A stretch of DNA of 64,000 nt from Lachnospiraceae bacterium (GTDB taxonomy: Bacteria > Bacillota > Clostridia > Lachnospirales > Lachnospiraceae): positions 1 to 64,000 of the forward strand of contig CASJPF010000019.1 of the NCBI GenBank assembly GCA_949383255.1, written 5' to 3'. The position numbers and the translations under genes were made by a program. Numbering within the stretch: position 1 is the stretch's first letter; each line of letters starts with the position of its first letter. The notes below the pieces were generated by a model that was not told where the DNA came from, did no database searches, and was given only the letters and a program-made list of their open reading frames with translations. Positions 5,380 to 25,597 of the stretch are shown here, piece by piece.

Positions 5380-6045
5380 ATGTACAGAATAATGATTGTT
5401 GAAGATGAAATTATGATGAGGAATGAATTATCCAATATGCTAAAAAACAATGGGTATGAGGTATGCTACATTACAGACTTTGTAAATGTAACCGATCAGC
5501 TTATTCAGGAACATATGGATCTAATTTTGCTGGATATCAATCTTCCAAATGAAAATGGATATCAAATTTGTAGCAAAGTGCGTGCAAGCATTCCAGTTCC
5601 AATCATTTTTATAACCAGCAGAAATTCTGATATGGATGAGTTGAACAGCTTTATTTCTGGCGGAGACGATTATATTACAAAGCCATATAATATTCCTGTT
5701 CTTCTGGCAAGAATCTCCAATGTACTAAAACGCACATACAAGGAATCAGAAAATGAACAGTTGGAATATAAAGGTTTGATATTATATGTGGAAAAAAATA
5801 TCATTGTTTATAATGAGCAGGAAATAGAGCTTACTAAAAATGAATTTAAAATCTTATTGTTTTTAGTAAAGGGAAAGGGGAAAATTTTATCTCGAACGGA
5901 AATCATAGAGTATTTATGGGACAATGAAATGTTTGTCGATGACAATACTTTAAGTGTAAATATCAGAAGGATACGTACAAAGTTAGAGAAAATAGGTCTC
6001 TCTGATTTTATACACACAAAGCACGGACAGGGATATGCGGTATAA
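5380..6045 (+). CDS. OmpR-family response regulator (BceR-like)
   Basis: MYRIMIVEDEIMMRNEL..LILLDINLPNENGYQIC..FITSRNSDMDE; winged-helix C-terminus; adjacent to kinase and BceAB-like ABC genes. Confidence 0.88.
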   Translation: MYRIMIVEDEIMMRNELSNMLKNNGYEVCYITDFVNVTDQLIQEHMDLILLDINLPNENGYQICSKVRASIPVPIIFITSRNSDMDELNSFISGGDDYITKPYNIPVLLARISNVLKRTYKESENEQLEYKGLILYVEKNIIVYNEQEIELTKNEFKILLFLVKGKGKILSRTEIIEYLWDNEMFVDDNTLSVNIRRIRTKLEKIGLSDFIHTKHGQGYAV

Positions 6046-7060
6046 TCAAATGAATGAATATTTAAAAGAAAATAAAATCTACATCTTTGTTGGTATGACT
6101 GCCTTGATTTTTTTATCTGCCTTTTTAATTTCAGAGGATATTCAAACAGCATATGTAATTTCAATTGATGTGATTTCCTGGGGAATTTTCAGTTTCCTTT
6201 TTGTATACCATTATTTGCGGAGAAAAAAATATCATACAATAATCGAAAAGCTCCTTGAAGGACTAGACAAAAAATATCTGTTGACAGATATTATAGAGTT
6301 TTCTCAGACACTAGAAGACCAATTTTATTATCAAATAATGAAAGAATGTACCAAAGCAATGCTTGATGAAATTGCGCGTGAGAAAATAGATCGGCTAGAA
6401 TATAAGGAGTATATCGAACAGTGGCTTCATGAAATTAAAAATCCCCTTGCAACAATTAAATTAATTTGCGATAACGACCGTTCCGCAACAACAACAAAAA
6501 TACTGCTTGAAATAACCAGAATGAATAACTATATGGATCAGGTTTTATATTATGCACGAAGCGCAGATGTTGAGAAAGATTATATTATCAAGGAAATACA
6601 GCTTTCAGAATGTGTGAAGAAAGTTTTAATCAAAAATAAACAGCTTTTGATTGAGAATAAAGCAAAAGTTATACTAGACGAATGTAGGGATTCTGTATTA
6701 ACAGATGAAAAATGGTTGGAATTTATTATTACGCAGATAATTAATAATTCAATACAATATAAAACTGATAACTCAATGGAATTAAAAATATTTACCCAGA
6801 AAATAGACAAAGACATAGAACTAATCATCCAAGATAATGGAATTGGCATTTTAAAATCAGATATTTCCAGAGTTTTTGAAAAGGGATATACGGGTAAAAA
6901 TGGAAGGAATAATAGTACATCAACAGGTCTTGGACTTTATTTGTGCAAAAAATTATGTAACAAACTAGGCGTGGACATTTATATTGAATCACAAAGAGGA
7001 CAAGGAACGAGTGTTATATTGGTATTTCAAAATAGAAAAATATTAGAGATGCAGTCATAG
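6035..7060 (+). CDS. Sensor histidine kinase (BceS-like, intramembrane-sensing)
   Basis: Two N-terminal TM segments, EQWLHEIKNPLATIKL H-box, GLGLYLCKKL G2 box; overlaps the response regulator. Confidence 0.87.
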   Translation: MRYNQMNEYLKENKIYIFVGMTALIFLSAFLISEDIQTAYVISIDVISWGIFSFLFVYHYLRRKKYHTIIEKLLEGLDKKYLLTDIIEFSQTLEDQFYYQIMKECTKAMLDEIAREKIDRLEYKEYIEQWLHEIKNPLATIKLICDNDRSATTTKILLEITRMNNYMDQVLYYARSADVEKDYIIKEIQLSECVKKVLIKNKQLLIENKAKVILDECRDSVLTDEKWLEFIITQIINNSIQYKTDNSMELKIFTQKIDKDIELIIQDNGIGILKSDISRVFEKGYTGKNGRNNSTSTGLGLYLCKKLCNKLGVDIYIESQRGQGTSVILVFQNRKILEMQS

Positions 7061-7195: not shown

Positions 7196-7975
7196 ATGAA
7201 AAATGAACGACCGCTATTGCATATTCAAAATATACAAAAGTATTATGGAAGCAACAATAATAATATTGTGAAAGCTCTTGATGACATCAGTTTTGATGTA
7301 AATAAGGGAGAATTTCTAGGAATTATGGGAGCCTCTGGCGCTGGTAAGACAACATTACTGAACTGCATTTCTACGATTGATACCGTTAGCGCTGGACACA
7401 TTATTCTGGGAGAGAATGATGTTACTACATTGAAGAATAAAATGCTTGCGCAGTTCAGAAGAGAAAACCTAGGTTTTGTTTTCCAGGATTTCAGCCTATT
7501 GGATAATTTAACAATATATGACAACATTGCTCTAGCATTAACAATCAATGGTGTCTCATCTGTTGAAATTAAACGAAGAATAGACACAATTGCAAAAGAA
7601 CTAGGAATATATGAGATTCTACAGCATTATCCGTATGAAGCATCTGGCGGGCAAAAGCAGCGTTGTGCATGTGCCAGAGCAATCATTAACAATCCCCAGT
7701 TGGTTCTTGCGGATGAGCCGACAGGCGCTTTAGATAGTCATTCTGCCCAAATGCTTTTAGAAACAATGTACGATATGAATAAAAAGCTAAATACAACATT
7801 TATAATGGTAACACATGATGCACTTTCAGCAAGTTATGCCAAGCGTGTTATTTTTTTAAAGGACGGGAAGATTTATATAGAATTACAGAAAGGAGAAAAA
7901 GAGAGGCGCCACTTTTTCACCGAAATATTAGATGTAGTAGCACTTCTAGGAGGTGAACGAAAACATGTATCTTAA
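7196..7975 (+). CDS. ABC transporter ATP-binding protein (BceA/MacB-like)
   Basis: GASGAGKTT Walker A, ASGGQKQR signature, LVLADEPTGALD Walker B. Confidence 0.92.
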   Translation: MKNERPLLHIQNIQKYYGSNNNNIVKALDDISFDVNKGEFLGIMGASGAGKTTLLNCISTIDTVSAGHIILGENDVTTLKNKMLAQFRRENLGFVFQDFSLLDNLTIYDNIALALTINGVSSVEIKRRIDTIAKELGIYEILQHYPYEASGGQKQRCACARAIINNPQLVLADEPTGALDSHSAQMLLETMYDMNKKLNTTFIMVTHDALSASYAKRVIFLKDGKIYIELQKGEKERRHFFTEILDVVALLGGERKHVS

Positions 7976-10085
7976 ACTGATTAATAGTAATTTTAGGAAG
8001 GCTGTAAAAGATTATCAGATATATATTATTACATTAGTAATTAGTTCAGCCTTATTTTTTGCTTTTGTTTCTCTGAGTAGCCCATATAATACAATTATAG
8101 CAGATGGAAGTCGATATTCCAATGAGCTGTTTCGAGAAACGATTAATTTGACTGTCGGGTTAGTCTCTCTGATTTTTTTTGTTTTAGTAAACTATGTAAA
8201 TAACCATATGCTCAAAAGAAGATCAAAAGAATTTTCATTGTATATGCTTTTGGGTATGGAACAAAGAAAAATTGCCTTCTCCTATTTTATAGAAACTTTT
8301 GAAATTGGAATTGCAGCGATTTTTATCGGGACTATACTCGGAATACTTTTGTCAGGGGGACTTACAAGCATTGTGTTGGTTTCCACCGGCGGTAAAATGG
8401 ATTATAAAGTAGGATTTTATCCAGACACATTTTTAAAGACCTTTCTTTTCTTTATATTTGTATTTGTATTTACTGGAATGTTCAACACGAGAAAGTTGGC
8501 AAAAACAAAACTTCTTGAGCTTTTGAACGCCGAGAAGGTATCGGAAGGGCAATCGCAAAGAAAAAACATATATATGATTGGAACAGTGATTTCCATTCTT
8601 TCCTTTGCTATTGCTGCGGTAATGTTAAAAAAATACTTATCTGTTGAGCGTGATTATATGTCAAATGTTCCAGCAGCAATAAACAACAGATATCAAACTG
8701 TGATTGGTGCTACTTTGGTATGCGGCATATTCTCTGGCTGTTATGCAGCTTCGTATATTATTCGCATCATTCGAGATAAAAGTACAAAGTATAAGTATAA
8801 AAAACTGAATGTTGTATTTATCAATAACTTGTATGCGCGATCCACTTCTAATGCGAAAGTAATTGCTAGTGCCACAATTGCTATTGCTGTTTCCATTTTA
8901 GGATTTGTTATCGCTCCTGTACTAGCTGATATATCAGAAGAATTTTTGGATTATAGAATGCCATACGATTTAATGATAAATAATTCATATAGATACATTG
9001 ATCTACAGGAAGATATCCCATATATAGATTATTCTTTTGTCCGTGATATTTTGGCGGAATATGGAATTGAAGAAAGTGAGGTATGCCAACAAGAATCATA
9101 TTTTGTGTGGGGAAAAAATTTTAAAAACGCAGATATGCGTGATAGTAAATGGGATATGCCAAGACTAGCTATTTCTCTTTCTGATTATAATCAGATGAGA
9201 CAAATGGCAAATTTGCCAACAATTGACCTTAATGATAACGAATTTGCCTTGCAAGTGAGCAATGAAATTGACAAAGTAAACATGGAAGCACAAATTAAAT
9301 CAGCAGAATCTGAAATTATTTTAGACGATAAGAGAAAATTGGTCTTGTCAGCAAAACCAGTATATAATGATGCAGTAGGAACATTTTTGTATAATTTCGG
9401 CAATTCTAGCTCCTTTATATTCGCAGATAGCGTGTGTGAAAATTTGAAAATAGCAAATACCTGTTATTATGCTAATACCTCAAAAGCTATACCAATCAAT
9501 GATTGTACCGAAATTGAAAAGCAAATCAAAAAACAATTCAGGGCAAATTATCCAGAATTGTATGATAAATATGAAACAAAATATAAAACAGATAAAGATT
9601 ATCAAGATTTTATAAATCCTATACGTTTTATGACACAAGAAATAAACTCAGTTAAAATAAATTCAGTGTGTATTAGACTTCTAGGAGTTTATATTGGAGT
9701 GATTTTTTTTGTAATCTGCCTAAGCGTATTGGCATTACAGCAGCTCTCAGACGCAGAAAATAGCAAAAAACAGTATTGGGTAATGTATAAACTGGGAATA
9801 GAAGAAAAAGAAATATACAGCTTAATCAAAAAACAGATATCTATATTTTTTTCAATTCCTTGTGTCTTAGCAATGATTGGAGCTGGTATTGGTGTTTATG
9901 TGTTCCTACTCAGGTTTGGGCATAAAGTAGAGGCATATATTGGAACAGAGGATTTTATTTTAAATATATTTTTGGCAGTTATAATGCTTCTCATTATATT
10001 TATCTCTTACTTTTGGGGCACTGTAAAAGCATACCATCATAGTATCGAGACTGTTTTCAAAAACAATTTTCGGAAACAGATTTAA
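7965..10085 (+). CDS. BceB-like FtsX-domain ABC permease
   Basis: MYLKLINSNFRKAVKDYQIYIITLVIS, multiple TM segments with a large extracytoplasmic loop; start chosen for AGGAGG spacing. Confidence 0.88.
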   Translation: MYLKLINSNFRKAVKDYQIYIITLVISSALFFAFVSLSSPYNTIIADGSRYSNELFRETINLTVGLVSLIFFVLVNYVNNHMLKRRSKEFSLYMLLGMEQRKIAFSYFIETFEIGIAAIFIGTILGILLSGGLTSIVLVSTGGKMDYKVGFYPDTFLKTFLFFIFVFVFTGMFNTRKLAKTKLLELLNAEKVSEGQSQRKNIYMIGTVISILSFAIAAVMLKKYLSVERDYMSNVPAAINNRYQTVIGATLVCGIFSGCYAASYIIRIIRDKSTKYKYKKLNVVFINNLYARSTSNAKVIASATIAIAVSILGFVIAPVLADISEEFLDYRMPYDLMINNSYRYIDLQEDIPYIDYSFVRDILAEYGIEESEVCQQESYFVWGKNFKNADMRDSKWDMPRLAISLSDYNQMRQMANLPTIDLNDNEFALQVSNEIDKVNMEAQIKSAESEIILDDKRKLVLSAKPVYNDAVGTFLYNFGNSSSFIFADSVCENLKIANTCYYANTSKAIPINDCTEIEKQIKKQFRANYPELYDKYETKYKTDKDYQDFINPIRFMTQEINSVKINSVCIRLLGVYIGVIFFVICLSVLALQQLSDAENSKKQYWVMYKLGIEEKEIYSLIKKQISIFFSIPCVLAMIGAGIGVYVFLLRFGHKVEAYIGTEDFILNIFLAVIMLLIIFISYFWGTVKAYHHSIETVFKNNFRKQI

Positions 10086-10119
10086 AAAAGGAGCCTGCAG
10101 TATTGTAGGCTCCTTTTTA
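10085..10119 (+). terminator. Rho-independent terminator after the bceB-like gene
   Basis: AAAAAGGAGCCT gcagtattgt AGGCTCCTTTTT. Confidence 0.85.
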
Positions 10120-10174
10120 TGCACACGGACGTGGAAACGAAATGTGCAGCGAAAGCTGCCCGCGTCCGGCACAT

Positions 10175-10200
10175 GAGTAGGGAAGATGAGACTTCCCTAC
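10175..10200. repeat. GAGTAGGGAAG hairpin repeat, copy 1
   Basis: GTAGGGAAG atgaga CTTCCCTAC; extended similarity to 25415-25444. Confidence 0.6.
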
Positions 10201-10256
10201 TTGATTTACATGTCAATGCAGAGGAAATATGCAAAAACAGGCAAATAGGAGTTAAC

Positions 10257-12185
10257 ATGAAAGAAATAATGGAACTAGTTCGATATACAAAAATTTCATA
10301 TTTAAGAAAACAGATAAAATGTTTTATATGGGTTCTACTAAACACTTTGCTTACATTAATATATCCAAGTTGTATCAGTTTTGTAATCGATCACGGTGTT
10401 GAAAAACGAGATATGTCAACAGTAGTTAACAGTGTAGTCATTCTACTGCTACTTGGTTTATTAATTATTCTCACAAACTACATACAACAACTTAAATACA
10501 CAAAACTTGGACGAGAAATATGTGAAAAACTAAAAAATAGAATTTTTCAGAAACTATGTAATACGAACTATAAATTTTGGAGTAAGAACAGGGTTGGAGA
10601 TATTTTAACGGTTATCAATACAGATATTTCTTCCGTAGAAAAGCTCTTCACTACAACAATAAATAATGCGATACTAAATAGCTTGTATTTTCTGGGAATC
10701 ATAATTATTCTGTTTTTATTAAATTATGTAATTGGCATTTGGATCAGCATATTGCTAATCGGCTTTATGATACTTCAAAGAAAAAATGGCAAAAAAATAA
10801 AAAATGGAATGACTGAACTAAGAACCAAAATGGGTATATTCAACTCAAACACTCAGGAAATGATCAGCAATATGCCAGACATCCAGTTGGTGTATCCTAA
10901 TAACAATTCATTATTCAGACTTGATAAAAAATCAAAAAATATGTTAAAGCTAGAAGGACTGGAAAATGAGCAGGCATATAAATATCTTTCATCAGTTATG
11001 ATTGTCGATGAAACAGACGAATTATTCAATAATATGAAGCAATCTGGTCTATTGGTAGATGAAAAAAAGTCTATTTCAAATAAAATAGAAGAAACAGCAG
11101 TGTCTCCTATGGGAGTTACATTAATGATTATTCAAGAGTGTAACCTGCGATGTACATATTGTTATGGAGAAGGTGGCGAATATCAAGATAGAGGAAAAAT
11201 GTCTCTGGATATTGCCAAAAAATCAATTGATTTTCTTATTGCCAATACTAAAAACAAAAATCTGCTGGTATGCTTTTTGGGCGGTGAGCCAATGATGAAC
11301 TTCCAACTAATTCAGGATGTTGTAGCTTATTGTGAAGAATATGAAAAGAAGCAGGAACTTCATTTCAGGTACACTATTACAACAAATGGAACAATCTGGA
11401 ATGAAGAGGTGGAGGAATTCTTCCGTAAAAACCAGTTTACAGTTCAGATTAGTATAGATGGAAAAAAGGAAGTTCATAATTGTAATCGCTGTTACGCAAG
11501 TGGAAAAGGCAGTTTTGATGTTATGGAAACAAATACAAGAAGTATGAGAAATGACGGTCTTGTATCTGGCAGAGCAACCCTAACTGCAACAAATCTGAAT
11601 TTAATTGATAATTTCAGATCACTTAATGAAATGAATCTTAATAGTATTCCAATGGCACCAGCACAAAATTTATTGTCTGATGAAGACTATGAAAAATTAA
11701 TAAAGGAAAACACTAAATTAGCAGAATACTTTCTGAAGTTGGTAAAAGATGGAGACTTTAAAACAGCTAAAAAGCTAAGAATCCTTATGTCAGGATTATA
11801 TAAAATACATAAGAGTGGCATAGAAAGAAATATACCATGTGGTGTAGGGAGTAGTAACATTGCTGTCGATATTAATGGTGATATCTTCCCTTGCCATAGG
11901 TTTGCAGCGAACAAAGAATATGTTATGGCAAATGTTTTAAGAGACACAGAAATGAACAACAAATCATTTTTAGAAGAAATAGACATAGATAAGCACGAAG
12001 AATGTAAAAAATGTTGGGTTAAAAATTTGTGTGCAGGAGGATGTCCCAATGAGAATCTTGTAAATGCAGGCAGTACTCAAAAATCTACGGAAAAAAGTTG
12101 TAAATTTATTCGCTCAATGTATAATGATTTAATTCATGTATATCTTGAACTAACATCAAATGATAAAAAACAACTTTGGGGCTAA
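10257..12185 (+). CDS. Chimeric protein: truncated ABC-exporter transmembrane domain fused to a radical SAM/SPASM peptide maturase
   Basis: N-term ABC TMD (FWSKNRVGDILTVINTDISSVEKLFTT); then IIQECNLRCTYCYGEGGEY (CxxxCxxC), CFLGGEPMMNF, and SPASM cysteines CGVGSSNIAVDINGDIFPCHRF..CKKCWVKNLCAGGCPNE. No Walker A/B. Start at MKEIMEL with AGGAG RBS. Confidence 0.82.
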   Translation: MKEIMELVRYTKISYLRKQIKCFIWVLLNTLLTLIYPSCISFVIDHGVEKRDMSTVVNSVVILLLLGLLIILTNYIQQLKYTKLGREICEKLKNRIFQKLCNTNYKFWSKNRVGDILTVINTDISSVEKLFTTTINNAILNSLYFLGIIIILFLLNYVIGIWISILLIGFMILQRKNGKKIKNGMTELRTKMGIFNSNTQEMISNMPDIQLVYPNNNSLFRLDKKSKNMLKLEGLENEQAYKYLSSVMIVDETDELFNNMKQSGLLVDEKKSISNKIEETAVSPMGVTLMIIQECNLRCTYCYGEGGEYQDRGKMSLDIAKKSIDFLIANTKNKNLLVCFLGGEPMMNFQLIQDVVAYCEEYEKKQELHFRYTITTNGTIWNEEVEEFFRKNQFTVQISIDGKKEVHNCNRCYASGKGSFDVMETNTRSMRNDGLVSGRATLTATNLNLIDNFRSLNEMNLNSIPMAPAQNLLSDEDYEKLIKENTKLAEYFLKLVKDGDFKTAKKLRILMSGLYKIHKSGIERNIPCGVGSSNIAVDINGDIFPCHRFAANKEYVMANVLRDTEMNNKSFLEEIDIDKHEECKKCWVKNLCAGGCPNENLVNAGSTQKSTEKSCKFIRSMYNDLIHVYLELTSNDKKQLWG

Positions 12186-12211
12186 CCCAATACTATGAAT
12201 AACACAAAAAT

Positions 12212-12250
12212 AAATTGAGTAGGGAAAGAAGAATCTTCCCTACTCAATTT
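12212..12250 (+). terminator. Terminator-like hairpin; copy 2 of the GAGTAGGGAAG hairpin repeat
   Basis: AAATTGAGTAGGGAA..TTCCCTACTCAATTT 15-bp perfect stem followed by a T-rich stretch, just after the rSAM ORF. Confidence 0.7.
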
Positions 12251-12396
12251 AGACTTTTTATTTGAGTGTGTAAAATAATTTCTGTAAATTAAGATCTTCT
12301 ATGATAAGTTATTATAAAGGATAGGTGTTTTTAGTTCACCTGCTTTTTACTATGCAAACGTTTGTTTTTTTCTGTCAACCCATATTAAGAAATTTT

Positions 12397-25400: not shown

Positions 25401-25414
25401 CAATTCCTTAGAAT

Positions 25415-25444
25415 CGAGTAGGGAAGTCTCATCTTCCCTACTCG
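25415..25444. repeat. GAGTAGGGAAG hairpin repeat, copy 3
   Basis: CGAGTAGGGAAG tctcat CTTCCCTACTCG; its reverse complement extends similarity to 10165-10208. Confidence 0.65.
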
Positions 25445-25597
25445 CGTTCCGGACCTTATACAAATAATATTCTTTTGGAGTCTCTCTTCTCTCCGCTTCT
25501 ATGGCAAATCTTTTGGCTTCTTCTATAAATCTCAAACTCCGCACATTAATTTTAATTATGTACCTTAAATTTGATACAAATATCACAGAAATAATTT

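Follow-up and report, generated by a model that had tools for sequence, protein, structure and literature searches.

A chimeric exporter–maturase reading frame beside a BceAB-like module in a Lachnospiraceae genome, probably the product of an in-frame deletion

The window, which is the whole 64-kb stretch of DNA that was analysed, contained a complete four-gene module on the forward strand between positions 5380 and 10085. This comprised a response regulator (5380–6045; PF00072, PF00486), a sensor histidine kinase (6035–7060; PF02518, with a SapS-like NCBIfam match below its cut-off), a BceA-like ABC ATPase (7196–7975; PF00005) and a large, BceB-like FtsX permease (7953–10085; PF02687). The permease showed 43% identity to G013 and 32% identity to the permease beside the maturase of G074. 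The same four-gene make-up is found in BceRS-BceAB sensing and resistance modules, and similar transporters were present in most of the intact clusters described below. The sensor-regulator-BceAB-like module probably still works in peptide resistance. It is not part of the chimeric gene that comes after it; since such a module was found as an orphan, without RiPP genes, in G103, it may be a mere neighbour. G-C content was 29–36.5% in the module and in each half of the chimera, compared with 39.8% for the window, and this shared low G-C content fits a single acquired cluster.

A strong terminator-like hairpin followed the permease gene (10085–10118, forward strand), as identified by its inverted repeat and fold. 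This led into one copy of a dispersed repeat of approximately 92 nt with two hairpins (10117–10208, forward strand), located 5' of the chimera, for which BLAST returned 38 places in the organism's own genome, this one included. A hairpin of the same repeat type was identified on the 3' side of the chimera (12211–12251); other places were 25412–25454 (second hairpin only) and L055–L065. Compensatory changes were observed at 15 of 28 predicted pairs in 10 copies, showing that the structure of the repeat is conserved; Rfam produced no match to it. The second hairpin alone (GAGTAGGGAAG...CTTCCCTACT) had 35 exact matches in the genome, counting both strands. In the stretch that separates the terminator from the chimera's ATG, no promoter-like site was found.

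The chimera itself encoded 642 amino acids in one frame without stops (10257–12185, forward strand). An AGGAG ribosome-binding site lay immediately 5' of the ATG at 10257, which aligned with the starts of related exporters and was taken to be the gene's own start. A longer protein beginning at 10119, as given by the mechanical open reading frame, was rejected; the additional stretch was the dispersed repeat, open in frame and lacking coding homology. Within the 642 residues, Pfam identified an ABC_membrane domain (PF00664; residues 22–210, E = 4.5e-21), a Radical_SAM domain (PF04055; residues 291–405, E = 6e-12) and a SPASM domain (PF13186; residues 528–587, E = 9e-5), while the NCBIfam model for PapB-type maturases (NF047865, rSAM_PapB) gave a match of 364.5 bits, above its cut-off of 340, over model positions 4–329 of 330. 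The match to ABC_membrane covered profile positions 4–194 of 274 and ended within the domain, and no match to ABC_tran was found anywhere in the open reading frame. A previous, sequence-only reading had described an in-frame chimera of a truncated exporter membrane domain, ending mid-domain near residue 210 and lacking a nucleotide-binding domain, and a radical SAM/SPASM maturase; the open frame and the profile matches bore out each of these points. On present evidence, a real and well-delimited chimera exists at 10257–12185.

The exporter-derived half (residues 1–211; 10257–10889, forward strand) was recognised by PF00664, by identity to full exporters and by hydropathy. It retained four of the six membrane helices of an ABC exporter, with hydrophobic stretches at residues ~20–45 and ~51–80 and a pair corresponding to TM3 and TM4 within ~133–176; TM5, TM6 and the ATPase domain were absent, a loss of approximately 330 residues. 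Its nearest relatives were exporters of radical SAM RiPP clusters, with 34–39% identity over the first 211 residues to exporters of 541–548 amino acids in the organism's own genome (C33) and in G021 (C29 and C40); related exporters of such clusters were also present in G037 (C73) and G011. All of these are full exporters of 541–555 amino acids that possess six helices as well as the ATPase domain, whereas the chimera keeps only ~39% of that length. The lantibiotic-like origin that had been proposed for this half was rejected accordingly, as its relatives are not specifically lantibiotic exporters. The exporter on C33 belonged to an exporter-RR-HK-BceA-BceB set (L033, 93–6835), RR and HK being response regulator and histidine kinase, which stopped at the end of the contig; in related loci of G021 (L075) and G037 (L076) the set was extended by a pair of radical SAM genes and by a precursor of 56–57 amino acids with a GCSDDC core.

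The two halves were aligned separately with stand-alone relatives. Exporter relatives aligned with the chimera up to ...TQEMISNMPDIQL, and full-length exporters could be followed through ...NTQEMISNMPDIQL, for which the Paraclostridium exporter had ...HTQELVFNISDIKM; maturase relatives aligned from ...NNNSLFRLDKK, the counterpart in G074 being ...ENSSFFKIDKR. Since the alignments met at residues 211–215 or thereabouts, the join was placed at nucleotides 10887–10901 (forward strand). Residues ~212–642 constituted a nearly whole PapB-type radical SAM/SPASM ranthipeptide maturase. In comparison with its relatives, only the first 20–30 residues were absent; the leader-binding domain had thereby lost its first strand, and exporter sequence stood in its place. 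The remnant of this N-terminal, PqqD-like domain (10890–11060, forward strand), which aligned with G074, G450, G573, G862 and other maturases, is presumably the RRE; the complete leader-binding domain that characterises the PapB family was not present.

The remainder of the maturase appeared unimpaired. The radical SAM domain (11127–11471, forward strand; PF04055 and NF047865) contained the CxxxCxxC cluster motif as CNLRCTYC at residues 295–302 (11139–11162), and the SPASM domain and C-terminus (11838–12185, forward strand; PF13186) retained all SPASM and auxiliary-cluster cysteines in alignment with ten relatives. In a leave-one-out test of decay, in which each sequence was scored at positions invariant among the others, the maturase half deviated at 3 of 47 (by L to M, V to A and G to A substitutions), compared with 0–4 among the relatives, and none of the 5 such positions in the exporter half had changed. 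There was no visible decay in the maturase core, which had no stops and kept all of its catalytic cysteines; therefore, either the event was recent or the protein has been kept under some constraint. The chimera exceeded the curated cut-off for the family of PapB, the freyrasin maturase, across both the radical SAM and SPASM domains, but it differs from that family in having its leader-binding start replaced by exporter sequence and in being fused to membrane helices. Maturases of the PapB family install thioether links from Cys to Asp or Glu within CX3D motifs. Among solved structures the best relative was PDB 5wgg, which we take to be CteB, a SCIFF thioether maturase; this aligned over residues 235–598 of the chimera. 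CteB belongs to another maturase family; it carries an intact leader-binding domain and, unlike the chimera, is a soluble, stand-alone enzyme.

Neither whole-genome searches of 98 near relatives, nor samples of ~390 genomes from the order, 390 from the class and 399 from the phylum, produced another fusion; in total approximately 1,250 genomes were covered, from genus to phylum, with samples that overlap in part. The fusion was also absent from the plasmid and phage collections searched. Relatives of the two halves were found at up to 43% identity for maturases and up to 39% for exporters, and they were never joined; a scan of genome contigs found one distant maturase only, and a protein scan of viral contigs gave no match. 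A widespread family of fusions was rejected on these grounds, given its absence from the genus, family, order, class and phylum samples and from plasmids and phages. One match to a Paraclostridium plasmid covering 90% of the query was considered as a second fusion and rejected, since the maturase and the exporter behind it are two distinct genes that share a strand. On this plasmid (P. bifermentans, CP124692.1; L068) the PapB-type maturase just before the exporter was missing from the gene table; it reached the first position of the circular record, so that its precursor would span the record's origin.

Intact clusters of the kind expected of the parents, in which exporter, maturase and precursor each have a gene to themselves, were found within the genus as well as in more distant organisms. 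In G011, of the same genus, the order was precursor-maturase-exporter, a TraB/ChaN-like protein, BceA and BceB. In G573 and on an Anaerococcus prevotii plasmid it was precursor-maturase-BceA-BceB-exporter, and in G450 precursor-maturase-BceA-BceB. G368 had RR-HK-ABC-permease-precursor-maturase, the P. bifermentans plasmid had maturase-exporter-RR-HK-BceA-BceB, and G074 had BceB-maturase-BceA-exporter-RR with a possible precursor ahead of BceB. These gene labels were read from translated sequences, except on the two plasmids, which were annotated. None of the intact clusters found had an exporter directly ahead of a precursor and maturase.

The precursors of these relatives were separate genes of the CX3D type encoding 33–56 amino acids, usually with a BceAB-like transporter alongside, and they adjoined the maturase in G011, G573, G450, G368, G472, G021, G862 and A. 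prevotii. In most of them the leader had (I/V)N close to its start and the cores were of the form C-x2-C-D, which fits the CX3D motif and leader asparagine reported for PapA/PapB (PMC9413430). None of the five precursors tested reached an NCBIfam cut-off. In contrast to these PapB-family relatives, no small open reading frame of the CX3D type was found in the 64-kb window, consistent with the earlier statement that no precursor lay near the chimera; the precursor close to the maturase that marks ranthipeptide clusters was thus wanting in the window. A single related precursor used to query the rest of the organism's genome also retrieved none, which is a weak negative. Two further loci were observed in the same genome. 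One (L034, G000:C27, 8182–9808) held a second broken-looking maturase in consecutive pieces of 245 and 125 amino acids, followed by a cysteine-rich, 63-amino acid open reading frame (MKLVNVDG...CQCKDTADNNS) resembling a RiPP precursor. The other (L036, G000:C74, 783–12996) had RR, HK, BceA, BceB, a possible precursor of 47 amino acids and, among other genes, those for three radical SAM proteins, and was apparently a complete RiPP locus.

Of the two interpretations put forward in the sequence-only reading, a relic left by a deletion and a maturase tethered to the membrane, the evidence favours the former: the open reading frame was probably produced by an in-frame deletion within a PapB-type ranthipeptide cluster, a reading to which both the separation of exporter, maturase and precursor in all relatives found and the absence of the junction from every other genome searched lend weight. 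We infer an ancestral order of RR-HK-BceA-BceB-exporter-precursor-maturase, to which G368 is the nearest; from that order, with an exporter placed before the precursor, one deletion would yield the present locus. The deletion would have run from the middle of the exporter membrane domain, through the remainder of the exporter and the precursor gene, to approximately codon 20–30 of the maturase. It may have removed ~1.2–1.35 kb, consisting of ~1.0 kb of exporter, ~0.2–0.25 kb of precursor and spacers and 60–90 bp of maturase, and the stumps would have rejoined in frame, for which the chance is one in three. Any protein made from it would combine an inactive exporter fragment with a cytoplasmic maturase core that has damaged leader binding and no substrate gene nearby.

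The alternative, that the protein is a working, membrane-tethered maturase using the exporter piece as an anchor and acting on a precursor whose gene lies in another part of the genome, was judged unlikely, and less likely than the deletion relic. The intact catalytic motifs, change not in excess of that in relatives and a ribosome-binding site of its own would suit such an enzyme, as would the predicted topology, in which four helices and positive-inside loops place the maturase in the cytoplasm; PapB, moreover, accepts varied core sequences (PMC9413430). However, the anchor would be an arbitrary, transport-incompetent third of an exporter, cut in mid-domain, and the leader-binding domain is without its first strand. 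Also against a functioning system are the single occurrence among ~1,250 genomes searched, the failure to find a promoter-like site upstream, and the fact that no precursor was found in the window or, on the weak negative from one query, in the genome. A functional new architecture, in which the exporter-domain anchor would couple modification in space to export or sensing, was considered similarly doubtful.

Two other explanations would dispense with a deletion in a complete cluster. The contig might unite two genes, for an exporter and for a maturase, that lie apart in the real organism, either by misassembly or by the collapse of strains; the draft assembly comprises 169 contigs, is 86% complete and 6.85% contaminated, and the junction occurs in no other genome searched. 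Yet the junction lies inside a 68-kb contig, neither half has a second copy in the assembly, the junction is free of repeats of assembly size, composition stays even from one half to the other, copies of the dispersed repeat native to this genome stand on both sides of the gene, and a random misjoin would need to land in frame as well, so that an artefact seems improbable. Alternatively, there may never have been a complete cluster at the locus, the halves having come from two clusters through illegitimate recombination or rearrangement. The nearest exporters to the N-terminal half (G021, G037 and C33) do occur, where the contig shows it, in clusters with another precursor type and other maturases, and the order of exporter before maturase was unseen in intact PapB-type clusters; but the composition common to both halves and the neighbouring module, and a gene set that is the usual one for PapB-type clusters, make an origin from two clusters very improbable.

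The in-frame deletion relic being preferred, the chimera most probably represents a dead end and not a novel architecture for an enzyme. We know of no other membrane-tethered maturase of the ranthipeptide kind; were the protein functional, it would be the first. The open reading frame also carries a warning for genome mining, since it exceeds the PapB cut-off and would be called as an active ranthipeptide enzyme despite the loss of the exporter, the precursor and a leader-binding strand. If a relic, it would be a clean example of a peptide-antibiotic cluster being dismantled while the adjoining resistance module survives.
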